Part shown: positions 1 to 36,506 of the stretch, piece by piece
Layout of the letters: each line of letters begins with the position of its first letter
Position numbering within the stretch: the first letter of the stretch is position 1
Source: Gammaproteobacteria bacterium RIFOXYD12_FULL_61_37
GTDB taxonomy: Bacteria > Pseudomonadota > Gammaproteobacteria > Chromatiales > Chromatiaceae
Direction of reading: 5' to 3'
DNA: 64,000 nucleotides
NCBI GenBank assembly: GCA_001801995.1
Contig: MGZB01000028.1
Coordinates: 1 to 64,000, forward strand
Translations under genes and position numbers: made by a program
Notes under the pieces: generated by a model
Told to the model about the DNA's origin: nothing
The model's input: only the letters and a program-made list of their open reading frames with translations
Databases searched by the model: none

Positions 1-61
1 ACCGTGGCACCGCCGGGAAACCAGGCGGCAACAGAGAACACAAACTTCGGCCTAAACGGGG

Positions 62-2884: not shown

Positions 2885-2941
2885 GGCGCTTCTATGCGCT
2901 AAACTGCAATCAATATCCCCGAGAGGAAGGAGCTAAACATT

Positions 2942-3139
2942 ATGTCTATGGTAATCAACGCCGCAGTGCCAGACCGTTTATGGCAACAAGCACAGGCCAT
3001 GGTGGAGCAGGGCTGGGTCAGCGATATGGAATCCTTGATCGCGGAATCATTGCGCCGTTACATCGACTCCCATCAGGAAGTCATTACGGAGCAATTCATT
3101 CGGAGCGACATCGACTGGGGCCTCCATGGGAGCGACTAA
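2942..3139 (+). CDS. Ribbon-helix-helix type antitoxin
   Basis: A 65-residue protein whose N-terminal 45 residues fit a ribbon-helix-helix DNA-binding fold (short strand VINAAVPDRL, then two helices with SDMESLIAESLRRYI). Its acidic, Trp-containing tail fits a toxin-neutralising segment. A clear AAGGAG ribosome site at about 2925-2930 supports ATG 2942; an ORF in another frame overlaps but has no such support. It overlaps the next gene by 14 nt, the usual arrangement of a toxin-antitoxin pair, with the antitoxin probably repressing its own promoter. The exact antitoxin family was not identified. Confidence 0.75.
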   Translation: MSMVINAAVPDRLWQQAQAMVEQGWVSDMESLIAESLRRYIDSHQEVITEQFIRSDIDWGLHGSD

Positions 3140-3644
3140 TGGGCAGGATTCGCTTGTCGTCATCGCCGATGCCGGGCCATTGATCCATCTGGATGAGCTT
3201 GCTGCGCTTGATCTGTTAGGTGACTACCGGCAAGTGCTGGTACCTGACGCCGTTTGGCGTGAAGTGGAACGCCATCGCCCGGAAGCCCTGCAATCATCCC
3301 GCATTTGTCTGTCCCGGCAGCCGTTACAGGATACCGCCGGGCTTGCCGATGCGCTGACAGCAATGTACACACTGCATGCGGGCGAACGGGAGGCGTTGGC
3401 GTTATGTTTGGCTCAACCGAAGAGTCTGTTGCTGACGGATGACACCGCAGCCCGAATGGCGGCGAGTGTTTCCGGTATCGATGCACACGGCACGGTGGGC
3501 CTTCTGATCCGGGCCGTGCGTCGTCGATTGCGCAGCAAAGAAGAAGTTCTTCGTCTGCTGGCTGATATTCCACGGCGCAGTACGCTGCATATTCGCCCCT
3601 CTTTTCTGGCGGACATCATTCGGGAAGTCGACGAAAGTGCCTGA
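3126..3644 (+). CDS. PIN-like (DUF3368-type) toxin
   Basis: A 172-residue protein with a PIN-like fold: the strand VVIADAGPLIHL carries the first acidic residue, a conserved Glu follows in VWREVERH, and LLTDDTAAR supplies the later acidic pair. This pattern fits the DUF3368 group of predicted ribonuclease toxins. It follows a ribbon-helix-helix antitoxin with a 14-nt overlap. Its stop codon overlaps the start of the next gene as TGATG (3642-3646), which suggests translational coupling to the HlyD-type adaptor and is unusual for a toxin gene. RNase activity is family inference. Confidence 0.75.
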   Translation: MGATNGQDSLVVIADAGPLIHLDELAALDLLGDYRQVLVPDAVWREVERHRPEALQSSRICLSRQPLQDTAGLADALTAMYTLHAGEREALALCLAQPKSLLLTDDTAARMAASVSGIDAHGTVGLLIRAVRRRLRSKEEVLRLLADIPRRSTLHIRPSFLADIIREVDESA

Positions 3645-5474
3645 TGGAGTGCCGCAGCATTCACAATAAATATGCCTGGGACGCATTTGTCGCCGCCCGG
3701 ACAGCGGAGGATCGCTGTCGCAATTGGCTGGCGCTGGTGTGTGGTCGAGTTGCAGGGGTTCAGGCCGGGGCTGTGTTAGTGGCAAGCCAGGAGGTGCATA
3801 CCTATGTGCCCCTGGCGGTGTGGCCGGAGGCCATGGCGGAAATGGGGCGGCTCGCGGAGGTGGTGGAGGAATCCCTGCGCGAGCAACGAGCCCTGGTGCG
3901 GGCCTCTTCCCGTAGCGGCAGCGAGATCTATCACCTTGCCTACCCGCTCCAGCCGGATCAGCGAATCGAAGCCGTTGTGGCCCTGGAGGTCGCCTGTTCC
4001 CGTGAGGCGGTGGATCTGGCACTGAAGGAGATCCACTGGGGGAGTGCCTGGCTGATCACTCTGTTGGCGGGGCGCCAACTGGAAGAGGCCAATCGCGGCA
4101 AGGACCGCTTGGCTTCGGTACTTGAGACGATGGCGGTCGGCCCTGCGCCACGGCAAGATGCAACAGGCTATGTTCGAGCTGGTGAGTGCCCTGAGAGGAA
4201 GATTTTCCTGCACACGGGTGGCCATCGGCCTCGTGAGTCATGCCGAGGTCAGCCTGCTGGCCATCTCGGATGCGGCAACCTTCGAAAAACGGACTGCCCT
4301 GGCCAAGGCCTATGTGGCTGCGATGCACGAAGCCCATGATCTGTATCGGGTGCTGCAATCCACGGCCGCACCCGTCGGCGCCGAGGGGGACAGGGTAGCA
4401 ACACCGAAACATGATGCCTTGAGAAACCTGTCCGGCGCCGGCGTCGCCCTTTCCCAACCGCTGATGATCTCGGCGCAATGCGTGGGCATTGTCACCCTGG
4501 AGCGGGAGTCGGAACCCTTCTCGGCCGATGACCGGGTTTGGCTGGATGCCTTTTCCGCCCTGTTCGCCCCCGTCATCGAACAGCGCCGAAGGGCGGAGCG
4601 AGGAGCCGTTGGGCGTCTGAACGACGATGTGCGGGGTCTGCTGGAGAAATTCTTTGGCCCGAGGCACCTGGTGTGGAAGGTATCCGCAACGCTGGTTCTG
4701 CTGCTGACCCTGCTGATGGTGGCGCTACCCTTCGAGTATCGCGTCACCGCCAGGACGGTCATCGAGGGAGAGGTGCAGCGGGTCGCGGCGGCACCGTTCG
4801 AGGGCTTTATCGGCGCGGCTTTCGTGCGCGCCGGGGACAGCGTCACCGCCGGCCAGCCCTTGGCCCAGCTCGATGATCGCGAGTTGCGCATCGAACAGGC
4901 GCGCTGGGATAGCGAGCGCAGGCAGTTCGAGAATAAATTGCGGGAGGCCATGGCTGGCCACGATCTGACGGCGGTGCAGGTGGTCGGGGCACAGCTTGCA
5001 CAGGCCGAGGCCCAGCTCGATCTGGTGACGGGGAAGATCGAGCGTGCCCATCTGACAGCCCCTTTCGATGGCATCGTCGTTTCGGGGGATCTGAGCCAGA
5101 GGATTGGGGCGCCGGTGCAACTGGGCGAGAAGCTGTTCGAGATCGCCCCCCTGCAAAGCTACCGCATCATCCTGCAGGTGGATGAGCGCGAGATCCGTCA
5201 TGTTCAGATGGGCCAGGAGGGCGACTTGGTCATCACGGGCATTGCCGGAGAGCCGATGCCGTTCCGGGCATCCAAGGTGACCCCGGTGGCGATGGCGCAG
5301 GATGGCAGGAACTTTTTCCGGGTGGAAGCGGACCTGATGGACGCTTCACCGCGCTTGAGACCGGGAATGGAAGGGGTGGGCAAGATCAGGGTGGGCAGCC
5401 GGTCACTCTGGTGGATCTTCACCCATTCATTCTCGGACTGGCTGATCCTGAAACTCTGGACCTGGTTACCCTGA
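3644..5474 (+). pseudogene. GAF-HlyD family periplasmic adaptor, split by a 1-base frameshift
   Basis: One gene in two frames. The first part (3644 to about 4138, residues about 1-165) is a GAF-like sensor region; the second (about 4140-5474) continues the GAF region. A membrane segment follows (around VSATLVLLLTLLMVAL), then a HlyD-like half with barrel-sandwich and beta-barrel segments (VIEGEVQRVAAAPFEGFI, TAPFDGIVVSG). Removing one G near 4139 joins LETMAV to ALRHGKMQQAMFELVSAL without a gap. Proteins with this layout sit beside M50-type membrane proteins, as here. The role would be a membrane-fusion adaptor in export, with the GAF part possibly cytoplasmic. ATG 3644 overlaps the toxin stop codon. 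Either the gene is decayed or the sequence has an error; the rest shows no decay, which favours an error or a recent mutation. Confidence 0.7.
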
Positions 5475-5486
5475 GAGGTTGCCGAA

Positions 5487-7634
5487 GTGGCGCGTACTCT
5501 ATTCAGTCCCTCCTGGCATAGCGTGGCCGACCTGCGTCCGCGCCTGTTGCCACAGGCCCGGATTTGCCGTCACCTCTATCGCGGCCAGGTCTGGTATCTG
5601 GTCCAGGACCAGACGGGGGGCCGTTATCACCGCCTGACCCCGGCGGCTTATGCGTTGGTGCTGGAAATGGACGGCTCGCGGACTGTGCGAAGCCTGTGGG
5701 AACGCGCCAATACCAGCGGATTGGGGGATGCCTGTACCCAAACCGAGATGGTGGATCTGCTTATCCAACTGCACGCCGCCGACCTGCTTCAGGTAGACGC
5801 AACCCCCGACTCGGTGGCTCTGTTCGATCGCTACCAGAAGAAACGGCGCGCGACCCTGAAGCAATGGGTATTGAACCCCATGAGCCTGAAATTGCCTCTG
5901 GTCGATCCCGATGCGTTCTTGATGCGTTGGTCACCGTATCTGGCCTGGTGTTTCGGTCGTGTCGGGGCAGCGGTCTGGCTGTTGGTCGTGCTGCCCGCGA
6001 TGCTCCTGGCCGCGCAGCATTGGCAAGAGTTGACCAACAATCTCTCAGACCAGGTGCTCTCCTCCAGCAATCTTATCGTGATGGCGTTGGTCTATCCCCT
6101 GGTCAAGCTGCTGCACGAACTGGGGCACGGCTTTGCAACCCGTGTCTGGGGCGGCGCCGTACATGAAATGGGGCTGATGTTCCTCGTGTTCGCCCCGGTT
6201 CCCTATGTCGATGCCTCGTCTTCCGCGGCCTTTCCTTCCAAATCACAGCGGGCCATCGTGGCGGCGGCGGGGATGCTCGTGGAGCTTTTCCTCGCCGCCC
6301 TGGCCCTGTATGTCTGGCTCCTGGCTGAACCCGGGGTGGTGAGGGCCATCGCCTTCAATATCATGGTGGTGGCCGGGGTCTCGACCTTGGTCATCAATGG
6401 CAATCCGCTGCTTCGCTACGACGGTTATTACATACTGAGTGACCTGATCGAGATGCCCAATCTGGCGCAGCGCGGACAGAAGTATCTGGCCTATCTGTGG
6501 GATCGCTACCTGTTCGGCGTCCATGACCTGGAGCCGCTGCGGGAAACGCCCGCCGAAAAACCCTGGTTGCTTTTCTATACGCCGCTGGCCTGGTGTTACC
6601 GTGTGTTCATCACGATCACCATCATCCTCTTCGTGGCGGGGGAGTTCTTCATCTTCGGGGTGCTGATAGCGCTGTGGGGGCTGTTCACGCTGTTGGGGAT
6701 GCCGCTGTGGAAGGCGTATCGTCACGTGACGAGAAGCCCCCTATTGCAGCGCCGGCGGGCGCGGGCCATCCGTATCTCCCAGGGGATTTTGGCCGGGATA
6801 CTGATCATTGCCTTTGGGGCGCCGGTACCGCTCTATACCTTCGCGCAGGGGGTGGTCTGGTTGCCGGACGAGTCGCTGGTGCGGGCGGGGGAGGGCGGTT
6901 TCTTCGTGCGCTGGCTGGTCCAGCCGGGCGAGGCTGTCCGGAAGGGGACGCCGCTGTTATTGCTGGAAGACAGGGCATTGACGGCCGAGGTGACGGTCGC
7001 CCGTGCCCGCGTGGCGGAGACGGAGGCGAAATATCGCGCGGAGCAGTTTCTCGATCCGGTGAAGGCGGCCCTGTCGCGGGAGCAGTTGGAACGGGAAAGG
7101 GTCATTTTGCGCAAGACCGAGGAACGTGCCGGAAGGTTGCTGGGCCATGCCGAGACGGATGGCGTACTGATTGCCCCCCAGTCGCAGGACATGCCTGGCC
7201 GGTATTTCAAGAAGGGGGAGCTGATTGCCTATGTCCTGGAAAAACAGGCACTGATCGCCCGCGTCGTGGTGCCGCAGGGCGATATCGATCTGGTGCGGAA
7301 CCGTTACCGTTCGGCCGAGTTCCGTGCTGCGGACTGGATTGCCCAGGCCCATGTCGCCGACGTGGTCAGGCAAGCGGTTGGGGGAGTGGACGAACTGCCG
7401 ACTGCGGCCCTGGGTATCCAGGGGGGCGGGGAGATTCCAACATTGCCGGGCGATTCGAACGGTGTCAAAACGATGGAGCGCGTGTTCACGGTCGATTTGG
7501 CGCTGCCCGCCACTCCACCCCAATCCGCTTTCGGCAAAAGGGCCCTTGTCCGCTTCGACCATGGCTTCGAGCCCCTGGCCTGGCAGGGCATGCGCCGGCT
7601 GCGACAGCTCTTTTTGAGCCGCTTCGGTGTTTGA
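5487..7634 (+). CDS. M50-type (site-2 protease-like) membrane protein with PqqD-like and biotinyl-lipoyl-like parts
   Basis: A 715-residue polytopic membrane protein. The N-terminal about 100 residues resemble a PqqD-like segment (GQVWYLVQDQTGGRYHRLT). The membrane core carries the zinc-protease motif HELGH at residues 210-214 and the partner motif LLRYDGYY with Asp about 312, as in S2P/M50 metallopeptidases. After further helices, residues about 470-715 form an adaptor-like region with barrel-sandwich hairpins and a coiled coil. It starts at GTG 5487, 12 nt after the adaptor gene, and overlaps the SecA-like gene by 8 nt. Related proteins are often annotated as HlyD-family or peptidase M50 proteins next to GAF-HlyD genes. 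The role is probably an export-complex component; whether it cleaves a substrate is unknown. Confidence 0.75.
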   Translation: MARTLFSPSWHSVADLRPRLLPQARICRHLYRGQVWYLVQDQTGGRYHRLTPAAYALVLEMDGSRTVRSLWERANTSGLGDACTQTEMVDLLIQLHAADLLQVDATPDSVALFDRYQKKRRATLKQWVLNPMSLKLPLVDPDAFLMRWSPYLAWCFGRVGAAVWLLVVLPAMLLAAQHWQELTNNLSDQVLSSSNLIVMALVYPLVKLLHELGHGFATRVWGGAVHEMGLMFLVFAPVPYVDASSSAAFPSKSQRAIVAAAGMLVELFLAALALYVWLLAEPGVVRAIAFNIMVVAGVSTLVINGNPLLRYDGYYILSDLIEMPNLAQRGQKYLAYLWDRYLFGVHDLEPLRETPAEKPWLLFYTPLAWCYRVFITITIILFVAGEFFIFGVLIALWGLFTLLGMPLWKAYRHVTRSPLLQRRRARAIRISQGILAGILIIAFGAPVPLYTFAQGVVWLPDESLVRAGEGGFFVRWLVQPGEAVRKGTPLLLLEDRALTAEVTVARARVAETEAKYRAEQFLDPVKAALSREQLERERVILRKTEERAGRLLGHAETDGVLIAPQSQDMPGRYFKKGELIAYVLEKQALIARVVVPQGDIDLVRNRYRSAEFRAADWIAQAHVADVVRQAVGGVDELPTAALGIQGGGEIPTLPGDSNGVKTMERVFTVDLALPATPPQSAFGKRALVRFDHGFEPLAWQGMRRLRQLFLSRFGV

Positions 7635-9615
7635 TGTGCGCGCACTGCTGGTGGGGCGGGGCATCGAGGTGGGCGATGGCGCCTATTTCGAGCGCATCGA
7701 CCCGTCGGCCAGCGCCATCGAAGAGAGGTTGCGGGGCATTCTGGCACGGTTTTCATTGGGGCGTGCCAAACCTTCGAGCCGGTTTGTCAGGCGGGTCAAT
7801 GCCTTGGAGGAGGGCCTCTGGGCGCAGAACGACGACGGGCTTCGGCAAGAAATGCGTTCGGTAACGGCACAAATGCGACGAGAGGGGTTCCGCGACGACC
7901 TTCTGCCGGCAGCATTTGCGATTGTTCGCGAGGCGGCGCGTCGTACCCTCGGCATGCGCCACCACGATGTGCAATTGCTGGCAGGTTATGCGTTGCTGAA
8001 AGGGAAGGTCGCCGAGATGGCAACAGGGGAGGGAAAGACGTTGGCGGCAACCCTGGGCGTCTGTACGGCGGTAGCGACAGGGGCCTCGGTGCATGTGGTT
8101 ACGGTAAACGACTATCTGGCCGAGCGCGATGCCGGACAGAATGCGCCACTTTTCCAGTTCTTCGGCCAAACCCTCGGCGTGGTGAAACAGGGCATGCCGG
8201 TCGAGGAGCGGCGGACACAGTATGAAAGCGATGTGGTTTATGTCTCGAACAAGGAACTGGCGTTCGATTACCTGAAGGACATCATCGCCCTGGGAGGGAC
8301 AGTGACGGCGCAGGTGAAATTGCGTCGGCTGCAACGATCCAGCCGACCGGCGACATCCATTCTGCGGGGGCTGCATGTGGCGATAGTCGATGAGGCGGAC
8401 AGCGTGCTGATCGACGAGGCCAGGACCCCCTTGATCATCTCCGAGACCCTGCCGGATGATCTGGGAGAGGCTGTCTATCGGCAAGCGATTTCGATCGCAC
8501 AGGGGTTGCGGCAGCAGGCTGATTTTGCGATCGCCAAGGATCGCGATGTCTGGCTGACCGAGGCAGGGGCGTCCAATGTACTGGGACTGTCCGTGAATCT
8601 CGGCAATATTTGGAAGTCGGCATTGTGGCGAAAAGAACTCGTTCAGAAAGCCCTGTCCGCGCTGCATGCCTTCCATCGCGACCGGCACTACATCGTCGTC
8701 GACGACAAGGTGCAAATCGTTGATGAGTTCACCGGCCGCGTCATGCCGGACCGGACCTGGGAGCGGGGACTGCATCAGATGATCGAGGCCAAGGAGGGTT
8801 GTGAAATCTCCGGACAACGCAAGACCCTGGCGCAGATTACCTATCAGCGCTTCTTCGGCCGCTACCTGCTATTGGCCGGTATGACCGGGACCGCCAAGGA
8901 GGTCGCCCCAGAGTTGAAGCGGGTGTATGACCTGTCCGTTGTCGGTATCCCTACCCATAAACCCAGGCGCCGGATTCGTCTTGCCGACCGCCTGCTTGGA
9001 ACCTCTGTGGTGCGTTGGAAGGAGGTGGCGCATCGCGTCGTCGAGATTGCCGGACAGGGGCGACCCGTACTGATCGGAACCCGTTCGGTGGAAGCGTCTG
9101 AAGCACTCAGTCGGCTGCTGGAGGAGCAGGGGGTCCCGCACAGCGTCTTGAATGCCCGTCAGGACAGGGAAGAGGCCGAGACCATCGCCGATGCCGGCCA
9201 AGCTGGAAGAATCACCGTCGCCACCAACATGGCAGGTCGCGGCACGGATATCAAACTGTCGCCGGAAGTGGCCGAACGCGGCGGTCTGCATGTGATTCTG
9301 ACGGAATTCCATGAGAGTTCTCGTATTGATAGACAACTGTTTGGGCGATCCGCCCGCCAGGGTGATCCGGGCACGGTGGAGGCGATCATCAGCATGGAAG
9401 ATGAAATCTTCTCCCGTTATGTGCCAATTCTCAGCAGGATCTCTCGACCCTATTTGCTCAAAGGCGGGTTCCCGAGCCGTTTGCTGCTCAAGGGCTTGGT
9501 TGCCTATGCCCAGCACAAGGCCGAACGGAACAACCGCCGTATTCGTCTGGACAGCCTCCAACGGGACCGCAAATGGCTGTCGGCCCTGGGGTTTGTTGGG
9601 GTTTCGAGGAAATAA
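7627..9615 (+). CDS. SecA-like accessory translocase ATPase (short SecA paralogue)
   Basis: A 662-residue SecA-family motor, shorter than housekeeping SecA (roughly 830-900 residues). Seen: Walker A ATGEGKT at residues 132-138, the DEAD-type box VDEADSVLIDEARTPLIIS, the preprotein-crosslinking region, DEFTGR, AGMTGTA, and the second motor domain with NMAGRGTDIKLS and GRSARQGDPG. The C-terminal zinc tail that binds SecB and lipids is missing and the C-terminal helical region is shortened. GTG 7627 overlaps the M50 gene; GTG 7636 is an alternative. The placement suggests a substrate-dedicated second SecA for the neighbouring surface protein, by analogy with accessory Sec systems; this is inference. 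Confidence 0.85.
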   Translation: MFDVRALLVGRGIEVGDGAYFERIDPSASAIEERLRGILARFSLGRAKPSSRFVRRVNALEEGLWAQNDDGLRQEMRSVTAQMRREGFRDDLLPAAFAIVREAARRTLGMRHHDVQLLAGYALLKGKVAEMATGEGKTLAATLGVCTAVATGASVHVVTVNDYLAERDAGQNAPLFQFFGQTLGVVKQGMPVEERRTQYESDVVYVSNKELAFDYLKDIIALGGTVTAQVKLRRLQRSSRPATSILRGLHVAIVDEADSVLIDEARTPLIISETLPDDLGEAVYRQAISIAQGLRQQADFAIAKDRDVWLTEAGASNVLGLSVNLGNIWKSALWRKELVQKALSALHAFHRDRHYIVVDDKVQIVDEFTGRVMPDRTWERGLHQMIEAKEGCEISGQRKTLAQITYQRFFGRYLLLAGMTGTAKEVAPELKRVYDLSVVGIPTHKPRRRIRLADRLLGTSVVRWKEVAHRVVEIAGQGRPVLIGTRSVEASEALSRLLEEQGVPHSVLNARQDREEAETIADAGQAGRITVATNMAGRGTDIKLSPEVAERGGLHVILTEFHESSRIDRQLFGRSARQGDPGTVEAIISMEDEIFSRYVPILSRISRPYLLKGGFPSRLLLKGLVAYAQHKAERNNRRIRLDSLQRDRKWLSALGFVGVSRK

Positions 9616-11170: not shown

Positions 11171-11258
<88 letters not shown>

Positions 11259-17339: not shown

Positions 17340-18239
17340 ATGAGCTGGTTTGAAAAATTGATGCCGAGCCGCATCCGTACCGACGGCGCGGTCAAGAAAG
17401 GGGTGCCAGAGGGGCTCTGGACCAAGTGCCCCAAGTGCGAGGCGATCCTCTATCGCGCCGAGATGGAGCGCAACCAGGACGTTTGCCCCAAGTGCGGCCA
17501 TCACAATCGCATCGGCGCCCGGCGGCGGCTTGATCTCTTTCTGGACGCCGATTCCCGCGTGGAGATCGGGTCCGGTCTGGAACCGGCCGATCCACTCAAG
17601 TTCCGCGACAGCCAGAAGTACCGCGACCGCATCACCCAGGCCCAGCGGGCGACCAACGAGAAGGACGCCATGGTGGTCATGGCAGGCAAGCTGAAGGGGC
17701 TGCCCACGGTCGTCGCCGCCTTTGAATTCTCCTTCATGGGGGGCTCCATGGGCTCCGTGGTGGGCGAGCGCTTCGTGCGCGGCGTCAATCATGCCCTGGA
17801 GAACAATACCCCCCTGGTCTGCTTCTCCGCCTCCGGCGGCGCCCGCATGCAGGAATCCCTCTTCTCCCTGATGCAGATGGCCAAGACCAGCGCGGCCCTC
17901 GGACGCATGCGCCAGCGCGGGCTGCCTTTCATCTCGGTGATGACTGATCCCACCATGGGTGGTGTCTCCGCCAGCCTGGCCATGCTGGGCGATGTGAACG
18001 TGGCCGAGCCCGATGCACTGATCGGCTTCGCCGGTCCCCGCGTCATCGAACAGACCGTGCGCGAGAAGCTACCGGAAGGCTTCCAGCGTAGCGAGTTCCT
18101 GCTGGACCACGGCGCCATCGACATGATCATCGACCGCCGCCAGATGCGTGACCGCCTATCCAACCTGCTGGCCATGATGACCCAGGTTGCGCCTCCTACG
18201 GCGCCAGAACATCCCCGTTCGTCGCAGGCCCGTTCCTGA
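17340..18239 (+). CDS. accD: Acetyl-CoA carboxylase carboxyltransferase beta subunit
   Basis: A 299-residue subunit that, with AccA, transfers the carboxyl group from biotin to acetyl-CoA in fatty acid synthesis. Seen: an N-terminal zinc ribbon with Cys30, Cys33, Cys49 and Cys52, then the crotonase-fold domain with [42 protein letters not shown] and [10 protein letters not shown]. The stop codon overlaps the folC start if the CTG start of folC is accepted. The trpA-accD-folC order is a gammaproteobacterial signature. Confidence 0.96.
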
Positions 18240-19504
18240 ATCATTCTCTGGCCGAGTGGCTGGCCTGGCTCGAAGGGCTTCACCCCTCGGCCATCGAGCT
18301 GGGGCTGGAGCGGGTAGGGGCGGTGTGGCGCCGGCTCCATCCGGGGCCTGTGTCCTTCAAGGTCATCACCGTCGGCGGCACCAACGGCAAGGGCTCCAGT
18401 GTGGCGATGCTGGAGGCCATCTACCGGGCCGCCGGTTTCCGGGCCTGCGCCTATGTCTCGCCCCACATCCAGCGATTCAACGAACGCATCCGCCTCGACG
18501 GCCAGGAGGCGCCTGACGATCTCATCGTCGAGGCGCTGGAGGCGGTGGAGCGGCAGAGGGGCGATGTTTCCCTCACCTACTTCGAATTCACCACCCTGGC
18601 CGCGCTCCATCTCTTTTCCCAGCACCGGCCCGATGTGGCGATCCTGGAGGTGGGCCTGGGCGGGCGCCTGGACGCGGTCAATCTCCTCGACGCCGATGTG
18701 GTCCTGATCACGTCCATTGCCTTTGATCACATGGACTGGCTGGGCCATGACTTGAACCAGATCGCCCGCGAGAAGGCGGGGATCATGCGCGCGGGCCGGC
18801 CCTGCGTATTCAACGGCGAGCAACCGGTCCCGGGATTGGTCGAGGCGGCGCGGGAGCGGGGCGCCAATTTGTTGATCAGGGGGCGGGACTATCAGTGGCA
18901 GGCGGAGGATGAGGGCTGGTCCTGGCGCATGGGCGAGCGTTGCCTCTCCGGCCTGCCGCTTCCCCGGCTGCGCGGCCGGCATCAGTTACACAATGCCGCC
19001 GCCGTGCTGGCCGTGGTCGAGTCCCTGCGGATGGCATTGCCCCTGGGCCGCGACGCGGTGCGCGAGGGCCTGCTGACCGCCTATCAGCCCTGCCGCTTTC
19101 AGGTGATACCCGGCGATGTTACCCATGTGCTCGACGTGGCCCACAACCCCGAGGCCGCCGCCGTCTTCGCCGCTACCCTGGCCGATATGCCCTGTGAGGG
19201 CCGGACCCTTGCCGTCTTCGGCATCCTCGGCGACAAGGATGCAGTCGGTGTCGTCGCGCCGTTGTTGGGCGTGGTCGATCACTGGTGCGTCGCTGCACCG
19301 GATACGGCTCGCGCATTGGCGGCCGATGCCTTGGTCGAAGTGCTCGACAGCGCCGGCGCACGGGCGGTTTCGAGCCACAGGAACATTGGCCAAGCCTACG
19401 GGTACGCCGCCGAAATAGCCCAGGATAGCGACAGAATCGTCATCTTTGGCTCCTTCTATACCGTCGCGGCGGTATTGGGCTTGATGAAGCCTAGACAGCT
19501 TTAA
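18236..19504 (+). CDS. folC: Dihydrofolate/folylpolyglutamate synthase FolC, probable CTG start
   Basis: A Mur-ligase-family enzyme that makes dihydrofolate and adds glutamates to folates. Seen: [16 protein letters not shown] (P-loop), [39 protein letters not shown] and DVAHNPEAA in the C-terminal domain. The first conventional start (GTG 18323) would remove about 29 residues. The frame is open upstream and reads [19 protein letters not shown], the usual FolC N terminus, directly after CTG 18236, which overlaps the accD stop as CTGA. No ATG, GTG or TTG lies between. I therefore place the start at CTG, giving about 422 residues. Either a rare start codon or an A-to-C sequence error explains it. 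Confidence 0.88.
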
Positions 19505-19589
19505 GATGTTGTGACATAGAACTATCCGGTAAACTTCCGTAGCCGTATCTTGTCGCATTAACCCTGATGGGCCAGATAGTGATTGCTTG

Positions 19590-20780
19590 ATGGACGCATT
19601 CGAATACGGACACCTTGAGGCCGCTCAGCCATCTCTGTCTTTTCGCTGGGGCGAGTTAAGTAATGGTTGCGATTTGAAGGGGGCATCTCTATATCCACTA
19701 AAGTGCGTTGATTTATTCGCCGGCGCTGGTGGCCTGTCTCTGGCCGCCGTAAAGGCGAGAATTCAGGTTGTGGCCGCTGTTGAGTTTGATAAGCATGCAT
19801 GCGCAACCTATCGTGCCAACTTGATCGATTCTTCCGAATACTCCGATACGAAACCTGAACTCTACTCCCTGGATATTCTCGATCTTCCTCCGGAAAAATT
19901 AAGAAAAGCGCATTTCCCCGGTGGAAACACTTGCGATGTCGTCCTCGGTGGTCCCCCTTGCCAAGGGTTTTCCGTGCATCGCATCAATAGCTCTGGTGTC
20001 GGTGATCCACGCAATAAGCTGATTTTGCGTTACTTTGACTTCGTCCGCTGTCTCAGCCCGAAAATATTTTTGATGGAAAATGTTCCCGGATTGCTTTGGC
20101 CCCGCCATCGCGACTTCCTGGAAGCTTTTCTCCGCCAGAGTGAAGAAGCCGGTTACCGTATCATCGGCCCGTACCCTTTGGATGCCAGGGATTATGGTGT
20201 TCCCCAGCGGCGCAAACGTGTTTTCGTCCTAGGGATCCGCCAAGATGTCCTCTTCGACGATTCTGTCTGGCCGCCTCAACAGACTCATGGGGACGCTAAG
20301 GCTCGGCAGCGGGATTCCTCACTGAAACCCTGGGCCACGGCATCGGCAATATTCGCGGTTCCGGCACCTGATTGCGACGAAAACAACCGTCACATGAACC
20401 ACTCGCCTGAACTGACAAAAATCTTTCAGGCTACACCACCCAATGGAGGCAGCCGCCACCAATCGGGACGAGTCCTGCCCTGCCATGATGGTCATGACGG
20501 CCACAGCGATGTTTACGGAAGGATAAACCCCAATCAGCCTGGACCGACCATGACCACTGCTTGCGTTAATCCGTCTAAAGGGCGGTTTGTCCACCCCACC
20601 GAGCCCCACGGCATCACCGTACGTCAAGCTGCGCGTTTTCAGACTTTTCCCGATAATTTCGTGTTCAAGGGGGGGCTGATGGCCGCAGCTAAACAAATCG
20701 GAAATGCGGTTCCGGTCCGGCTTGGCGAAATCCTGTTGAGGGCCGTATCCCACGGACTTGGGATTGGTCCTGATGCGTAG
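19590..20780 (+). CDS. DNA cytosine-5 methyltransferase (Dcm type) of a four-gene cassette
   Basis: A 396-residue C5 methyltransferase. Seen in order: motif I CVDLFAGAGGLSLAA, motif IV GGPPCQGFSVHR with the catalytic Cys, motif VI FLMENVPGLL, motif VIII QRRKRVFVLG, a target-recognition stretch (about residues 230-300), PGPTMTT, and motif X AKQIGNAVPVRLGE. The N-terminal about 40 residues are extra. I use ATG 19590 rather than TTG 19587. Base use is clearly lower in GC than in folC, suggesting transfer. The vsr gene three genes downstream fits repair of T:G mismatches from deaminated methylcytosine. No classic restriction endonuclease gene is adjacent. The target sequence cannot be told. Confidence 0.9.
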   Translation: MDAFEYGHLEAAQPSLSFRWGELSNGCDLKGASLYPLKCVDLFAGAGGLSLAAVKARIQVVAAVEFDKHACATYRANLIDSSEYSDTKPELYSLDILDLPPEKLRKAHFPGGNTCDVVLGGPPCQGFSVHRINSSGVGDPRNKLILRYFDFVRCLSPKIFLMENVPGLLWPRHRDFLEAFLRQSEEAGYRIIGPYPLDARDYGVPQRRKRVFVLGIRQDVLFDDSVWPPQQTHGDAKARQRDSSLKPWATASAIFAVPAPDCDENNRHMNHSPELTKIFQATPPNGGSRHQSGRVLPCHDGHDGHSDVYGRINPNQPGPTMTTACVNPSKGRFVHPTEPHGITVRQAARFQTFPDNFVFKGGLMAAAKQIGNAVPVRLGEILLRAVSHGLGIGPDA

Positions 20781-20797
20781 CCGCAAAGGAGCGACCT

Positions 20798-23767
20798 ATG
20801 GTTGAAGCGGTTTCCTTTCGTACCCGCGCCCGCACCATCGACCACCTGGGGCGCGAGCAGATCGCCGACTGCCCGACTGCGATCTCCGAGTTATGGAAGA
20901 ACGCCTACGACGCCTACGCCACCAAGGTGGGATTGCACATCTACGACGGCGCCTTACCTGTGGCGGCCCTGGTGGATGATGGCCACGGCATGGACCGCAG
21001 CGAATTCATCGAAAAGTGGCTGGTGGTCGGCACTGAGTCCAAGGCGAGCGGAGGAGAGGTCGTCCCGGACGACCGCAACGGTCTCCCACTGCGACCCAAG
21101 CAGGGGCAAAAGGGCATCGGTCGCCTCTCCTCCGCCTTCCTTGGTCCACTCCTGCTGGTGGTTTCCAAGCGCCGCAACCGTCCCTTCACTGCCGCCCTCA
21201 TCGACTGGCGCCTGTTCGAAAACCCCTTCATCTATCTTCAGGACATCGAGATCCCGGTGGTCGAGTTCGAGACCAAGGAACAGCTCTTCGCCCACCTCCC
21301 CGGCATGTTTGAAGAGCTGCGCGGCAACCTGCGCGGCAACGGCAAGGATGCCGGGCGCGACGCACGCATCGCCGCCGCCTGGACCGGGTTCGACGCACTG
21401 GAGGCCGAGGAGGGCAAACCATCCACCCGCACCTCGATGGAGCGGGTGATGGATGACGTGACCTTCGAGCCCCGTCACCTGGATCAATGGCCCCTGTGGC
21501 GTGGGGAGAAGGAGCACGGCACGGCCCTGCTCATCGCCGACATCGTGTTCGATTTGGAAGCGCAGTTGCCGAGCCGATTGCATCCCGAAGATAAGGAAGC
21601 GGCGAAACAGTCCACTGATCGATTGCGTCAAACCCTTTCCAACTTCACCGATCCCTATGTCGATGCTGAAGAGCCCGCTGAAGGATATGGTGCGGAAGCC
21701 TTTGAGTATTCGGTGGTCGCATGGGACGGGGTGTTGCGGCAATTCGTGATCTCCGGTCAACGGGAGTTTGACTATCGGAATCTGGAGGACCTGGAGCATG
21801 TCGTGGATGGTCGTGTCGACGAAGAGGGAGTGTTTTTTGGGCGAATCAAGGCATTCGGGCGGTGGTTGGAGCAAGAGATTCGCATTGTGCCGACTGGGGC
21901 GGTCTCCCTGCGATCAAGCTCCAAGGTCGGGCCATTTCACTTACGACTGGGCTCCTTTCAACAGGTTCCTAGTTCGTCGTCGCATCCGCCGGATATCCAC
22001 CGCAAATTACTGGAACAAGCCGAGAAATACGCAGGCGTTATGGTTTATCGCAATGGACTTCGGGTGATGCCGTATGGGCGGGAGGACAATGATTTCTTCG
22101 AAATTGAAAAGCGACGCACTCAACATGCTGGGCGCAATTTTTGGTCGAACAGGCGGACTTTTGGGCGCATAGGGCTTACCAGAAAAGATAACCCAAACCT
22201 GAAAGATAAGGCCGGACGCGAAGGGATCATCGACAATAAGGCGGCAAAGAACTTTCGCGATTTGGTTATTAATATACTTAGAAAAACGGGTTCCGATTAT
22301 TTCGGTACCGACTCGGATCTCCAAAAGCAATACCTGCCCGAAATCCAGGCCAACCGCGCCAGAGAAAAAGCTGAGGAAGAGCGTAATCGCCAGCGCGCCG
22401 TAAAACGCAAGCGTTTCCGCACCAACTTGCGCCGCCTCGCCCCCGAGCTGGACGCGCTGCTCGGCGAGTTGGATGCACTGGCAGAGCGGATCAAAACCGC
22501 CGACTTGGCCTACGAAGCAGAGATCATGGGCCTGCGTACCCAATTGAAGGAGTTGAAGGATCGTTCCAAAGAATTTGCCCTGGGCGAGGCCCCGCGTACC
22601 CTCGGCTCGCTGGAGGAGGAGTACGCCCAATACCGCTTCAACCAACGGCGGGCGGCAGAGCGGCTGGGCTCTCTGGAGCAGTCCCTGAATGCCGCACTGG
22701 AAGCGGTGAATCCCCGCGCGCCCCGCGACCTTGCCTACGCCGACCTCAGCAGCCACGCGGCCTATCTGCAACACAGACTGAAACGTTGGCTGAAGGAGAG
22801 CCGTGAACTACTCGATGCCGAACAGAGGCGCATCGGCGGGCTCTACGAGGAACGCAGCAAATGCTATCACGCTCGCACACTCCCCTTGCTCGACGACATC
22901 GAACAGGAGCGACTTCCCTTGGCCGAAGCCATGGAGCGGTTGGCCGTGGAGCGGGAGAAGGCGGACCTGGAAAACGCCGACACTTTCGAACCGTATATCG
23001 CTGCTCTGCGCAGTCTGCAAGAAAACATCGACCTCGCCACCCTTGCCGACCACGGTATGGATGCCGTGGACGAGATGCGCGAGGAGCTGGATCGACTGCA
23101 TTCCCTGGCGCAGCTCGGCATCACCGTCGAGATCATTGGCCACGAGATCGAGGGATTGGAGCTGACCATCAGCGAGGGGTTGAACGAATTGCCCGAGGCC
23201 GCCCGGCAATCGCCGAGCTTCGCCGCCATCAAGACCGCCCACGAGGCCCTGGCGGATCGCCTGCGTTTTCTCTCGCCTCTCAAACTTTCCGGTCCCAAGT
23301 TCCGCACTTGGCTCGGCGGGGACGAAATCCTGCGGTACGTGCAGCGCTTCTTCGGCGACTCCCTAGCAAAGGGTGGCATCACCCTGGAGGCCACCGAGCG
23401 ATTCCTCCGCTTTTCAGTCTACGATCAACCCTCGCGGCTCTATCCGGTCTTTCTCAATCTCATCCACAACGCAGCCTACTGGGTTCGTCAGGCACGCACA
23501 GGAGAGCATCGCATCTTGCTTGACGTAGTGGAGGGCCGCGTAGTGATCGCCGACGACGGCCCCAGCGTGGACGAACAGGACCGCAAGCACCTATTCACCC
23601 TGTTTTTTACCCGCAAGGTGCGAGGCGGTCGCGGGGTCGGGCTATATCTGTGTCGCGCCAACCTCGCTGCAGGTGGGCATACCATCGAATACGCAACGAA
23701 GGACCCGTTCAAGGTTCTGACGGGAGCCAATTTCATCATCGACTTCAGGGGAGCGAAGTATGAGTGA
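20798..23767 (+). CDS. Dual GHKL protein: N-terminal GHL/MORC-like ATPase plus C-terminal histidine kinase-like module
   Basis: A 989-residue protein with two Bergerat-fold ATP sites. The first has Glu31, Asn35 and Asp38 in AISELWKNAYDAY, then DDGHGM at 60-65 and GQKGIGR at 103-109, as in Hsp90/MutL/MORC ATPases. The middle (about 520-760) is charged and largely coiled coil. The second has a possible phosphoacceptor His782 in IIGHEIEGLE, an N box around Asn891 in FLNLIHNAAYWV, DDGPS from Asp919, LFTLFFTRK, and a GRGVGL box near 944-949, as in sensor histidine kinases. No membrane segment or sensor domain is seen, so it is cytoplasmic. AAGGAG precedes ATG 20798, and the stop overlaps the receiver gene. 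The likely role is an ATP-driven DNA-acting or switching component of a defence system that passes phosphate to the next protein. This is inference. Confidence 0.75.
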   Translation: MVEAVSFRTRARTIDHLGREQIADCPTAISELWKNAYDAYATKVGLHIYDGALPVAALVDDGHGMDRSEFIEKWLVVGTESKASGGEVVPDDRNGLPLRPKQGQKGIGRLSSAFLGPLLLVVSKRRNRPFTAALIDWRLFENPFIYLQDIEIPVVEFETKEQLFAHLPGMFEELRGNLRGNGKDAGRDARIAAAWTGFDALEAEEGKPSTRTSMERVMDDVTFEPRHLDQWPLWRGEKEHGTALLIADIVFDLEAQLPSRLHPEDKEAAKQSTDRLRQTLSNFTDPYVDAEEPAEGYGAEAFEYSVVAWDGVLRQFVISGQREFDYRNLEDLEHVVDGRVDEEGVFFGRIKAFGRWLEQEIRIVPTGAVSLRSSSKVGPFHLRLGSFQQVPSSSSHPPDIHRKLLEQAEKYAGVMVYRNGLRVMPYGREDNDFFEIEKRRTQHAGRNFWSNRRTFGRIGLTRKDNPNLKDKAGREGIIDNKAAKNFRDLVINILRKTGSDYFGTDSDLQKQYLPEIQANRAREKAEEERNRQRAVKRKRFRTNLRRLAPELDALLGELDALAERIKTADLAYEAEIMGLRTQLKELKDRSKEFALGEAPRTLGSLEEEYAQYRFNQRRAAERLGSLEQSLNAALEAVNPRAPRDLAYADLSSHAAYLQHRLKRWLKESRELLDAEQRRIGGLYEERSKCYHARTLPLLDDIEQERLPLAEAMERLAVEREKADLENADTFEPYIAALRSLQENIDLATLADHGMDAVDEMREELDRLHSLAQLGITVEIIGHEIEGLELTISEGLNELPEAARQSPSFAAIKTAHEALADRLRFLSPLKLSGPKFRTWLGGDEILRYVQRFFGDSLAKGGITLEATERFLRFSVYDQPSRLYPVFLNLIHNAAYWVRQARTGEHRILLDVVEGRVVIADDGPSVDEQDRKHLFTLFFTRKVRGGRGVGLYLCRANLAAGGHTIEYATKDPFKVLTGANFIIDFRGAKYE

Positions 23768-31636: not shown

Positions 31637-32053
31637 TCACCCGACTTCGACCGTAATCACATCCAGAGACGTAATCCCCTCAAAGTCCCTCGCGTTATGC
31701 GTCACAAGTGGAGCAGCGTGACGGGTGGCGCAAGCGGCAATCCAAGCGTCGTTTGGGGCGATGGGTCGCCCGTTGCGCCTTCGCTCCGCCATCAGACGCC
31801 CGTAACAGCGGGCGATCTCATGGTCGTAAGGAATCACCACGAAATTGCGCAAGGTTGTTTCGAGTTTCTTCCGCTTCTCTTCGCCCCAATTATTGTTCTC
31901 CGCGCCGAAGTACATCTCGCCCACGGTGATGAAAGAAATGGCGAGCAACTTTCCTTGAACATGCGGTACATATGCTTCTGCCAGCGGACCGCCCTTCATC
32001 AGGTAGGAAACGATGTTCGTGTCGAGGATGGTCTTGGCGTTGCTCACAATCAC
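31637..32053 (-). CDS. PIN-domain (VapC-type) ribonuclease
   Basis: A 138-residue PIN protein: TILDTNIVSYLMKG with the first catalytic Asp, the Glu in FITVGEMYFGAEN, APNDAWIAACA with the third acid, and THNARDFEGI with the fourth. All four acidic positions are present, so it is predicted active. It starts at GTG 32053, overlapping the stop of the 327-aa gene. No recognisable VapB antitoxin is adjacent, so either the 327-aa protein neutralises it or it acts as an effector of the restriction operon. Confidence 0.8.
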   Translation of the reverse strand: MIVSNAKTILDTNIVSYLMKGGPLAEAYVPHVQGKLLAISFITVGEMYFGAENNNWGEEKRKKLETTLRNFVVIPYDHEIARCYGRLMAERRRNGRPIAPNDAWIAACATRHAAPLVTHNARDFEGITSLDVITVEVG

Positions 32054-33033
32054 CTCCCGCTTTCCGCGTGCGAATGCCTCAGATCATCAACCTCCCGCTC
32101 GAAGCCGTCGCCTATCTCACCCGGCCAGGTGCCGAAGAGCGCCCTTACATCGGCCATCGGTCGTACGTTCTGCGCCTGCGCCAGTTCATCCAGCGTCGGG
32201 GATTCCCAGAAGCTTCGCGAAATTGGGGTGCCTTGCGGGAGTAGATCGGCAGCCTCGCCCTCTCGATCATCCAGTCGCTCGATGTCGTGAATCTTGATGC
32301 TGGCGATCTTGCCCGTCAGAGGGTCTTCCTTCGCTTCGCCCACGATGCGAACGTAGCGCAGAATGTCATCCAGCACTTCATCCCTTTGCTCCTCGTCAAA
32401 GAGGCAAAGCACCGGTTCCCCGGCAGACGGGTGCACGCGGCAGCGCGTGCCGTGTTCCTTGAAATCAGCCATCAGCAAGCGGCCTTCGATGGTGCGGATG
32501 TTGGTCTGCGGTCCCTTGATGCGCTCCTGAATACGCGCAAAGCCTTCAGGCGTGAGATTCGTCGTCAGTGGGGTATCTCTGTGGTTCAGGGTGAAATAGA
32601 TGCTTGTGACTCCCTTGCTGAAGAGCGTCCCTGCATCGCGCCATGCCATCAGAACACCCGTGTCATAGCCCGGCGGAAGTGCGTCGTCCGACGCCTGCAC
32701 AGCGGTCAATCCGTCCAGTGCCTTCTCCAGAATATCGAGACCCATGTCCATGCCTGGCAATGCCGCATCGGTCTGTCTGCGCTCGAAGCCCAGCACAGCC
32801 GCCGGGCTGCCATGCGTCAACAACACCAGGTCGAGCGCGATTTCTTCCTTGATACCGCGCGGTTGCGGCCCACGGCGCAGACTTTCGGCCTCCCCGGTAA
32901 GAACACGCCCGGTCCGCTGTAGCGCCTTGTTCATATTGACCAGGAAAGTCAGCAAATGGGTGACAGGAATTCTGCCCGGCCCAACGGCCTCGCCATTGAA
33001 GCGAATCTTCAGCAAGGGATCATCTTCTTTCAT
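32050..33033 (-). CDS. Conserved hypothetical protein of the Type I R-M operon
   Basis: A 327-residue protein I cannot assign. It begins MKEDDPLLKIRFNGEAVG and has mixed alpha/beta character, no membrane segment, and no nuclease or ATPase motif that I can see. It overlaps hsdM-hsdS at its start (ATGA) and the PIN gene at its end, so it is translated as part of the same operon. The position between a restriction specificity gene and a PIN toxin suggests an accessory or antitoxin-like role; this is inference from context only. Confidence 0.65.
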   Translation of the reverse strand: MKEDDPLLKIRFNGEAVGPGRIPVTHLLTFLVNMNKALQRTGRVLTGEAESLRRGPQPRGIKEEIALDLVLLTHGSPAAVLGFERRQTDAALPGMDMGLDILEKALDGLTAVQASDDALPPGYDTGVLMAWRDAGTLFSKGVTSIYFTLNHRDTPLTTNLTPEGFARIQERIKGPQTNIRTIEGRLLMADFKEHGTRCRVHPSAGEPVLCLFDEEQRDEVLDDILRYVRIVGEAKEDPLTGKIASIKIHDIERLDDREGEAADLLPQGTPISRSFWESPTLDELAQAQNVRPMADVRALFGTWPGEIGDGFEREVDDLRHSHAESGR

Positions 33034-35678
33034 GATTCTGCCTCCGTCTGATCTACAGATATTGCTTGTTCGGCCACGCCAGCCGATACCGCCTCATTGT
33101 CGCCCCAAACGCGGGCGAGGGTGGCCTGGATCTTTTGCTCGAAGCGGGTGATCAGTTCGCGGTTGGCGGCCACCAGCGCTTGCTCGGCTTCGATCTCGGC
33201 CACGATGGCTTGCTGGGTGGCGAGGGGCGGAAGGGGAAACGTAATCGCGCTCAAATCATCTGTGTTGATCTTCAGCGTGCCATGCGCTGCGGTTTCGAGA
33301 ATCTTCCGAAACTGAGGCCATTCTTGTTTCAGCATCACCCTGAGAAACGTTGCATTGACCGACGAGTGAGGCTTCATCGCCTTCACGTCCTGGTTGAAGG
33401 CGCATGGCTTCGCGAGTTCACAGATGGGCACGCCGTTCGCGAGGCCCATACCTCTGACAAGAATTAGCAGCGAGCCGACCAGCGCGATCTGCGTGGCGCT
33501 CTCTTTGACGGCGGCTTCTGAAACGTGAGTCGAAGCATCAGACAAGACATCAGACTTCATGTCCTTCGCGGAAATCCACGGGATGTCGCCAATCCAATAT
33601 GACTCAATGGCCTTTGATGGCGTTCCGCCGCTGCTGTAGCTGACGACGTTACCCAACTCCACCATTGGCCAGTCGGGGTGGATGGGGATGTGGGGGCGGT
33701 AGTGGTCGAGGACGGCGCGGGCGCCGTTGATGACTTTCTGGTAGCCCTCGATCTCCGCCACGATCTCCTTCTGCACGCCCAGTGGCGGCAGGGGGATTTG
33801 GAGTTCGCAGAACTTCGACTTGGAGATTTCTGCGAACGTCCCGCCTGTTGCCCACGCTTGCATCGTCGGCACGAGCTTGGCGAGCGCTAGAGCCACGAAC
33901 TCCGGCACTGCTCGCGCCGAATCTTCGATCACGACGTTCTTGAAGCCTTGATTCGTAGCAATGGGGACACGGTTGATCGCTATGCGGCCAATGGTTGCAC
34001 GAGTCGAGACCACGACCGAATTTGGCGGGATCATCTTCGCGGAAGACTCGCGCAAGCCTTTGTCGGAAATCGTCCGTTTCGTTGCGGTGATTTCAGAGAT
34101 GAAGTCGGTCGCTGGAAGGTCAACAAGCGTCGCCCAAGGAATGCCGCCGCCCCAATATTCCTCAACGTCGGACTTGGGCGTGCCGCCGCTTTCAACCCGA
34201 AACAGAGTCTGTTCGCCGAGAAAGACCAGCGGGAAGGAATGATTCGAGGCAGCGCCCTCCCGATACCGCTCTCCACTGAGGTTGTAATCGCCATTCGCGG
34301 CGATCTTGTCCTTCGGCACGATCTGGGCGGTGGACGTGAGGGCGAGGACGGACTCGGTGGTCGCTTTGGAGCGGAGGGCGTGAAGGTACGCGGCGAGTTC
34401 AACCTGCACTTGCGGCAGGTCGTTCTTCTCGATGGCGCGGCGCTGGGCGCCGAGGCCGTAGCCGTCGTTCTCGACTTTGAAGAAGGCGATGGTGTCGGCC
34501 GCCTTGGCGAGGGATTTGTCGAGGATGAGGATGCTGGTCTTCACCCCGGAGTAGGGATTGAAACAGCCCGCCGGCAGCGACACCACGGCGACGAGGGAGT
34601 TCTCCACGAGCATCTTGCGCAGCGCTTTGTAGGCGGTCTGGCTCTGGAAGATGATGCCTTCGGGGACGATGATGGCGGCGCGGCCGGTGGGCGTGAGGTG
34701 CTCGGCCATGTAGTCCACGAACAGGACTTCGCTACGCTTGGCCTGGATTCCGAAGCGCTTGTGCGGCTTGATGCCGCCTTTCGGCGACATGAAGGGCGGG
34801 TTGGCGAGGATGACGTCGGCGAATTCGTTCCAGCGCTCTTCGGAGGTGAGGGTGTCGTACTCGTAGATGTGCGGATCGGTGAAGCCGTGCAGGTAGAGGT
34901 TCACCAGCGACAGGCGGACCATGTCGGGCGAGATGTCGTAGCCCTTGAAGTTTTTGGCGAGGCGGCCCTTGTCGTCGGGGGTGAGCAGGTCACCGGCGCG
35001 GTGTGCGGCGGCCCCCTCTCCCCGGCCCTCTGATGAAGCCTCTACCCTTCGGTATCCCGCGAGGGGCGAGGGAGATGAAGAGTTGCTGCGCAGGATGTGC
35101 TTGTAGGCGGAGATGAGGAAGCCGGCGGTGCCGCAGGCGGGGTCGAGGATGGTTTCGTGTTTCTGCGGGGCGAGGACTTCGACCATGAAATCGATGATGT
35201 GGCGCGGGGTGCGGAACTGGCCGGCATCCCCCTGACTGCCGAGGACGCTGAGCAGATACTCGAAGGCGTCGCCGAGGCGTTCGCTGTGGTCGTAGCTGAA
35301 CTCGTCGATGATCTTGAGAAAGGCCTTGAGCGTTTCCGGGTCGCGGTAAGGCAGGTAGGCGTTCTTGAAAATGTCGCGGAAGAGCGGCGGGATGCCGGGG
35401 TTTTCGGGCATCTTGGCAATGCCTTCGCCGTAGAGGCCGATCATCTCGTGGCCGCCGAGCGAGGGGGCCATGAGCTTGGCCCAGCCGTAGCGGGTGTAGT
35501 CGCCGGTGAAGAACTTGCGCTTGCCGCCAAGTTCCTCGCTCTCGGCGTCCATGTCGTCCATGAACTTGTAGATGAGGGCGATGGTGATCTGCTCGACCTG
35601 GGATTTGGGGTCGGGGACTTTGCCGACGAGGATGTCGCGGGCGGTGTCGATGCGGCGTTTGGTGTCGGTGTCGAGCAT
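33030..35678 (-). CDS. Fused Type I DNA methyltransferase and specificity protein (HsdM-HsdS)
   Basis: An 882-residue fusion. The N-terminal about 450 residues are an adenine-N6 methyltransferase: ILDPACGTAGFLISA for SAM binding and DVILANPPFMSPKGG as the catalytic NPPF box. Two target-recognition domains follow, each starting with the HsdS signature (GEQTLFRVESGGTPKS; LGNVVSYSSGGTPSK) and ending in a coiled-coil spacer (LPPLGVQKEIVAEIEGYQK; PPLATQQAIVAEIEAEQA). The start is ATG 35678 (MLDTDTKRR), overlapping the KilA-N stop as TAATG; an in-frame upstream extension to 35888 is only the frame shadowing that gene. A palindromic repeat is inserted in frame in the methyltransferase part. Two recognition domains predict a bipartite target. 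Confidence 0.9.
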   Translation of the reverse strand: MLDTDTKRRIDTARDILVGKVPDPKSQVEQITIALIYKFMDDMDAESEELGGKRKFFTGDYTRYGWAKLMAPSLGGHEMIGLYGEGIAKMPENPGIPPLFRDIFKNAYLPYRDPETLKAFLKIIDEFSYDHSERLGDAFEYLLSVLGSQGDAGQFRTPRHIIDFMVEVLAPQKHETILDPACGTAGFLISAYKHILRSNSSSPSPLAGYRRVEASSEGRGEGAAAHRAGDLLTPDDKGRLAKNFKGYDISPDMVRLSLVNLYLHGFTDPHIYEYDTLTSEERWNEFADVILANPPFMSPKGGIKPHKRFGIQAKRSEVLFVDYMAEHLTPTGRAAIIVPEGIIFQSQTAYKALRKMLVENSLVAVVSLPAGCFNPYSGVKTSILILDKSLAKAADTIAFFKVENDGYGLGAQRRAIEKNDLPQVQVELAAYLHALRSKATTESVLALTSTAQIVPKDKIAANGDYNLSGERYREGAASNHSFPLVFLGEQTLFRVESGGTPKSDVEEYWGGGIPWATLVDLPATDFISEITATKRTISDKGLRESSAKMIPPNSVVVSTRATIGRIAINRVPIATNQGFKNVVIEDSARAVPEFVALALAKLVPTMQAWATGGTFAEISKSKFCELQIPLPPLGVQKEIVAEIEGYQKVINGARAVLDHYRPHIPIHPDWPMVELGNVVSYSSGGTPSKAIESYWIGDIPWISAKDMKSDVLSDASTHVSEAAVKESATQIALVGSLLILVRGMGLANGVPICELAKPCAFNQDVKAMKPHSSVNATFLRVMLKQEWPQFRKILETAAHGTLKINTDDLSAITFPLPPLATQQAIVAEIEAEQALVAANRELITRFEQKIQATLARVWGDNEAVSAGVAEQAISVDQTEAES
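35011..35076. repeat. In-frame palindromic repeat inside hsdM
   Basis: Arms CCCTCTCCCCGGCCCTC and GAGGGGCGAGGGAG flank a short centre. The translated insert (SSSPSPLAGYRRVEASSEGR and a few more residues) falls between HILRSN and DDKGRLAKNFKGYDIS, where the family has no such segment. Confidence 0.6.
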
Positions 35679-36498: not shown

Positions 36499-36506
36499 GA
36501 TTGCTC

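Follow-up and report, generated by a model that had tools for sequence, protein, structure and literature searches.

The accD-folC junction

The window analysed here is a stretch of 64,000 nucleotides from contig MGZB01000028.1 of Gammaproteobacteria bacterium RIFOXYD12_FULL_61_37, whose genome is referred to as G000. Its plus strand carries the gene row trpF, trpB, trpA, accD and folC. The features at the junction of the last two genes are as follows.

17340..18239, plus strand: accD, acetyl-CoA carboxylase carboxyltransferase beta subunit (TIGR00515, 447 bits)
18237-18239, plus strand: end of accD, stop codon TGA after the last sense codon TCC (Ser)
18236..19504, plus strand: folC, bifunctional dihydrofolate/folylpolyglutamate synthase, 422 codons from CTG to stop (profiles and 1w78 alignment)
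18236..18238, plus strand: proposed folC start codon CTG, seven codons before a conserved Trp and recurring in relatives
18236..18239, plus strand: CTGA, four-base overlap of the accD stop with the proposed folC start (from the sequence)
18226..18228, plus strand: AGG, weak Shine-Dalgarno-like triplet 7 bases 5' of the CTG (from the sequence)
18239..18322, plus strand: conserved FolC N-terminal block, lost if the start is GTG 18323 (relatives and 1w78)
18152..18235, plus strand: folC frame open within accD upstream of the CTG, without ATG, GTG or TTG and without a slippery heptamer in the accD frame
18323..18325, plus strand: GTG, first conventional start codon of the folC frame and rival start (from the sequence)

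The folC frame lies one base back from that of accD, and bases 18236-18239 read C-TGA. Following a TGA, this frame stays open over the 28 codons upstream of the CTG (18152-18235), and no ATG, GTG or TTG occurs in it from 18152 to 18322; the next one is GTG 18323, 29 codons past the CTG. The original prediction, made from this sequence, had described a CTG overlapping the accD stop codon and no conventional folC start before GTG 18323. Both statements are exact, and the open frame upstream is likewise devoid of a conventional start.

The folC product is a full-length match to bifunctional FolC above the curated cut-offs. It scores 406.4 bits against PRK10846 (cut-off 360) and 311.9 bits against TIGR01499 (cut-off 162.65), and E. 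coli FolC (1w78) aligns over query residues 5-420 with an E value of 1.4e-96. It is the single FolC match in the genome, so the gene is single-copy. Profiles anchor the N terminus of 16 window genes; 15 of these begin with a conventional codon close to where one is expected. The exception is folC: no conventional start is compatible with its conserved N terminus. The junction thus has the geometry of a stop/start overlap, with shared bases and the downstream frame shifted by minus one, but its start codon is CTG and not a conventional one. It is a variant of the ATGA-type four-base overlap, and judging from this geometry it would work like that type.

Placing the FolC N terminus

The position of the folC start relative to the conserved Trp is well defined in the family. 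A conventional start lies 5-14 codons before the Trp in 138 of the 150 best-scoring family loci listed, out of 204 genomes with a match, and none lies there in the other 12. The CTG of the window stands at minus seven, a position occupied by ATG or GTG in G061, G065, G066 and G067; start codons are found at minus seven in loci L101, L109, L132 and L152. The block that follows, W-L-x-W-L/Q-E..., is present in relatives, and residue 13 of 1w78 aligns to residue 5 of the window's FolC. Between G000 and G001, the only other species of the genus, 20 of the 26 residues of this block are identical, as are 300 of the 388 in the rest of the protein; the nucleotide differences within the block fall at codon position 3 in 10 cases, position 1 in 8 and position 2 in 1. 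By this comparison, the constraint on the N-terminal block equals that on the remainder of FolC. Because the distance from Trp to start is fixed in the family and the codons after the CTG are constrained, the start should lie near the CTG. Overlaps of accD and folC in the family read ATGA in three loci (L016, L042, L067) and GTGA in five (L050, L058, L096, L107, L132), so CTGA stands at a place that is used for a start codon elsewhere.

The original prediction had proposed comparing this codon with relatives, where an ATG would count against a CTG start. The answer is mixed: eight codons before the Trp, 75 of 155 family loci listed have ATG (GTG in 15, TTG in 6), with the CTG of G000 one codon further on at minus seven, whereas within the genus the only other species has no ATG there and no overlap. 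At the aligned start of accD, the 155 listed loci have ATG in 108 cases, GTG in 8 and Lys in 15, with 24 unreadable and CTG in none. The 15 with Lys are longer N-terminal forms, most of them with a Met a few residues upstream.

Translation from GTG 18323 would yield a FolC without its first 29 codons. This is the first conventional start in the frame, the stretch upstream of it has a Shine-Dalgarno-like duplex energy of -7.0 kcal/mol, equalled or exceeded by only 9 of 140 conventional folC starts, and the TIGR01499 profile aligns only from FolC residue 29 on. Such a start would nevertheless remove a block that is conserved in relatives, aligned to 1w78 and as constrained as the rest of the protein, which makes it very improbable as the start of the main product. 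Since its Shine-Dalgarno-like stretch is the stronger one, GTG 18323 may still give rise to a shorter second product. The stretch upstream of CTG 18236 is average (-2.6 kcal/mol, with 74 of the 140 conventional starts equal or stronger), and we therefore rejected Shine-Dalgarno strength as a feature that singles out this codon.

Another unconventional codon might serve instead, either the in-frame CTG 18248, four codons downstream, or the distant upstream ATC 18158; alternatively, terminating ribosomes might restart at no fixed codon. Two distant relatives described below (G490, G494) do lack both a conventional start and an in-phase CTGA, ATC and ATT being the only candidates. However, CTG 18248 has no Shine-Dalgarno-like stretch (+0.4 kcal/mol) and no contact with the accD stop, and ATC 18158 would add 26 residues that are absent in that frame from every relative. 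We consider this family of alternatives improbable. As predicted originally, folC very probably starts at CTG 18236, a reading supported by the conserved block after the CTG and by its recurrence in related genomes.

A separate case is the folC of G006 (L077), which has no start codon near the conserved N terminus; an ATG lies nearby in another frame, as if displaced by a one-base change or an error.

Missing starts and CTGA overlaps in relatives

Among the listed loci, CTGA ends 111 of the 215 located accD genes; where the folC frame continues open through the accD stop, CTGA is in phase with folC in 37 of 92. On its own the overlap is weak evidence, as an in-phase CTGA is frequent by chance. 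The suggestion that CTGA hints at coupling with accD thus fares poorly when the tetranucleotide is taken alone, in-phase CTGA being present in 33 of 88 listed loci that have a conventional start. It gains from the genes in which such a start is missing. Only four of 239 listed loci (150 from the family and 89 from the class, the latter being the best-scoring 89 of 261) lack a conventional folC start altogether (G000, G029, G291, G436); L100, truncated by a contig edge, would make a fifth and was set aside. All four have the in-phase CTGA, against the 33 of 88 (one-sided Fisher p 0.024, in a test chosen after seeing the data). The comparison is not significant (7/13 against 30/79, p 0.22) when the criterion is loosened, so that a locus need only lack a conventional start within 15 codons. 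Selection on the C before TGA could not be read from its frequency and was rejected on that ground: C precedes TGA in 21 of 26 ends out of phase and in 37 of 50 in phase. In G029 (L021), the in-phase CTGA lies 14 codons before the Trp, and an ATT nine codons before it, with a strong Shine-Dalgarno-like stretch (-7.1 kcal/mol), is an alternative start.

The congener G001 counts against the proposed start: its accD and folC do not overlap, and CTGA is thus not fixed in the genus. In G001, accD stops some 54 codons short of the folC Trp, and inverted repeats lie between the genes. The candidate starts are an ATG 45 codons before the Trp, inside the repeat element, and an ATC 14 codons before it with a strong Shine-Dalgarno-like stretch upstream (-9.3 kcal/mol). 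The repeat element at this locus (L002) has a fold z-score of -6.2 and matches 44 times in G001 and 18 times in G000 (E up to 0.001). In the window itself, an 18-base perfect inverted repeat (17188-17205/17299-17316) lies between trpA and accD and encloses a 17-base inverted repeat (17213-17229/17240-17256); the arrangement is REP-like.

G291 and G436 were followed up because of their missing start, and the proportions found around G291 are therefore figures for that group and not rates for the class. The relatives of G291 comprise 57 genomes, 51 of which have a usable FolC N terminus (G489, G493, G497, G541, G545 and G546 were left out for want of one, as was a second FolC-like gene of G496). 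Of these 51 folC genes, 27 carry CTGA in phase and are free of conventional starts within 40 codons. These 27 genes span 13 of the 23 genera and six families, and in 19 of them, including 11 species of genus g245, the CTG is at minus eight exactly, where the start usually lies. The remaining 24 comprise all four species of genus g294, with GTGA at minus 13 where the related genus g311 has CTGA at minus 12; three genes that combine CTGA with a TTG or GTG at minus 14 (G530 among them reaches a contig edge); 12 with a conventional start and no in-phase overlap; and five with neither conventional start nor overlap (G485, G490, G494, G498, G549). G485, G498 and G549 have a CTG at minus eight without overlap. 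These five genes indicate that coupling is not the whole story and that an odd start needs no overlap. In G494 (L270) and G490 (L271), no ATG, GTG, TTG or CTG precedes the Trp, ATC and ATT are the only candidates, and the upstream stop in the folC frame is 15 and 19 codons away, respectively. Odd starts are no general habit of the group, since all 46 accD starts that could be placed are conventional (ATG 42, GTG 3, upstream ATG 1; 5 of 51 unplaced).

The genus of G436 has the in-phase CTGA in all three of its species; a conventional start is missing from G436 and G510, and a GTG stands at minus ten in G320. A CTG without overlap occurs in G050, at a site that is ATG in four of its congeners (G049, G052, G053, G056); the only other conventional codons of G050 are a TTG 53 codons before the Trp and one that lies 3 before it. 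G051 shares this CTG and has a TTG two codons upstream. In both genomes accD ends well upstream of the CTG, and a pattern search of 210 genomes for this form returned G050 and G051 alone.

We placed these genes on a quick FastTree tree of 122 FolC proteins, for which the sequence was used only from the Trp onward, which keeps out the columns of the trait itself. Five named FolC proteins (L031-L035) were also placed, and the four listed fall outside the G291 group. Thirty-six of the 122 rows lack a conventional start within 40 codons. This label requires 15 changes, of which at least 11 are forced by well-supported branches, bearing in mind that three changes can equal one gain and two losses; 500 label shuffles gave a mean of 31.1 changes and none as low as 15. 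G000 with G001, G050, G029, the genus of G436 and the G291 group are separate in the tree. On this tree, folC genes without a conventional start would need several origins.

The persistence of the C itself can be followed at the last base of the final accD codon. In 24 of the 27 CTGA genes an A there would be silent and would turn CTGA into ATGA, and the C is kept. Across the 11 species of g245 the codon is ATC in some and CTC in others, and its last base is C throughout; of the comparable accD columns, those invariant for C number 1 of 54 if only four-fold columns are taken and 3 of 72 if Ile is added. As the 11 species are related, this wobble test is suggestive only. A comparison of folC-frame identity before and after the CTG in g245 (0.64, 0.72, 0.74) gave no separation, accD being coding upstream, and was discarded. 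Over long times, then, the CTG appears to have been tolerated at the least, and it may have been kept.

These recurrences bear on the possibility that base 18236 is really an A or a G. One base decides the matter, C18236 is the third base of the accD Ser codon where A or G would be silent, and a single sequence of this species was read. The genome is, however, 100% complete with 0.28% contamination, C before TGA is the common end of accD, and the arrangement recurs in separately sequenced genomes, including that of G291, where it lies in a single contig. A sequencing or assembly error is highly improbable, and the CTGA start of folC, recurring as it does in many distant relatives, gives the impression of a genuine feature of long standing and not of an error.

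Still less credible is a minus-one frameshift that would produce an AccD-FolC fusion, or a silent folC. The folC frame does extend 28 open codons into accD, and a slippery heptamer is found in the overlap of 3 of the 27 related CTGA genes; between 18152 and 18239 of the window there is none in the accD frame, and frameshifting was rejected. A silent gene is at odds with folC being single-copy and constrained, and the FolC product is normally essential.

Probable termination-reinitiation and its known counterparts

Our preferred reading, to which we give a probability of about two in three, is that folC is started at CTG 18236 by termination-reinitiation from accD. A ribosome finishing accD would stand within a base of the CTG, and some of the terminating ribosomes would restart there with initiator tRNA. 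CUG pairs poorly with the initiator anticodon and de novo initiation alone should be weak, a handicap for which the arrival of terminating ribosomes would compensate. FolC would then be made as a low, fixed share of AccD. We infer that the CTG is decoded by initiator tRNA and that the ribosomes come from reinitiation and not from independent initiation.

If CTG 18236 is the start, coupling to accD is likely. The competing view is that ribosomes initiate independently at CTG 18236 and that the overlap is a coincidence, accD usually ending in CTGA. The frequency of CTGA, both at accD ends and in phase with folC genes that have conventional starts, speaks for it, as do the CTG codons of G050 and G051, with accD ended well upstream, and those of G485, G498 and G549, with no overlap. 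On the other hand, all four of the startless listed loci have the overlap, and the overlap is kept across 13 genera. The stretch upstream of the CTG equals or surpasses in strength the median of conventional folC starts (-2.9 kcal/mol) in only 7 of the 27 distant-group CTGA genes; such mostly weak Shine-Dalgarno-like stretches would suit a poor start codon badly, and they fit reinitiation. We therefore regard independent initiation as unlikely, and the idea of coupling, weak on the tetranucleotide alone, is strengthened by the 4 of 4 startless loci and the 27 of 51 distant-group genes that carry CTGA.

The proposed termination-reinitiation at CTG 18236 has close counterparts in the ATGA and GTGA overlaps treated in the main text of PMC6728339 and PMC10666635, which have the same geometry, with shared bases and the downstream frame one base back, and which differ in their start codon, that of the window's folC being CTG. 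In the E. coli and Haloferax pairs covered there, reinitiation drops sharply with distance. CTG does not occur in the main text of either paper, nor CTGA in that of PMC10666635. The accD-folC pairs of related bacteria have the same gene order and the same FolC N terminus, with ATG, GTG or TTG as start.

Weak start codons in real genes are known from infC of E. coli (ATT) and sigR of Streptomyces (GTC), as described in excerpts of PMC5472188. Starts of this type are under IF3 control, and by analogy the folC CTG would be expected to be IF3-sensitive. The differences are that the codon there is ATT/ATC or GTC and infC is autoregulated, whereas the folC start lies on the stop of the upstream gene. 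According to excerpts of PMC11497404, CUG has been placed in the P site with initiator tRNA in vitro, in complexes that are less stable than those with AUG, GUG or UUG and that are steadied by IF2, which recognises formyl-Met. That system is engineered and uses a variant tRNA, and folC is a natural gene. The same excerpts put the starts in 69 genomes at 82% AUG, 14% GUG and 4% UUG, and in 36 groups of close genomes a change from AUG to CUG was inferred in 2 of 61,358 AUG starts (excerpts of PMC5622118). Our searches of the open-licence PMC literature turned up neither a description of a conserved folC start at CTG or CTGA nor a paper joining folC, accD and the start codon.

A more speculative thought is that the weak CTG is a kept regulatory device, through which folC translation senses the one-carbon supply in a feedback loop between folate and initiation. 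A CUG start would need well-formylated initiator tRNA held by IF2, and the folates made by FolC would supply the formyl group; the loop would have been kept across an order-level group and reached independently elsewhere. The fidelity of initiation is affected by one-carbon metabolism (excerpts of PMC7949028), and a folate enzyme with a fidelity-sensitive start could, speculatively, form such a loop. We hold it to be improbable.

The usual sets of start codons omit CTG. If folC keeps it across 13 genera, the gene would offer a natural test case for a ribosome at a stop codon using a start that is otherwise shunned. With start prediction limited to ATG, GTG and TTG, proteins of this kind would come out tens of residues too short (here 29) or the overlap would go unseen; CTGA pairs would also drop out of surveys that recognise coupled genes by ATGA and GTGA.

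The rest of the window holds several other features. Its only tRNA gene (11171-11257, minus strand) encodes a tRNA-Leu with anticodon CAG, an elongator reading CUG. A VapC-like toxin lies at 31640-32083 (minus strand); its best profiles, below cut-off, are those of the tRNA(fMet)-specific endonuclease VapC, and if that reading holds it would target initiator tRNA. Directly 3' of folC, at 19587-23767, are a DNA cytosine methyltransferase of the dcm family and a large protein that partially matches restriction enzymes of the BbrUII/HgiDII type, below cut-off. Type I restriction-like methyltransferase/specificity and HsdR-like proteins are found at 33033-39047 (minus strand), with partial matches, below cut-off, to the MAD2 and EcoAI families. 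Finally, a row at 56-9615 comprises a Tandem-95 repeat protein, an efflux-type adaptor, an HExxH metalloprotease-like protein and a short SecA-like protein, the last an open frame of 665 aa that scores under every SecA cut-off.
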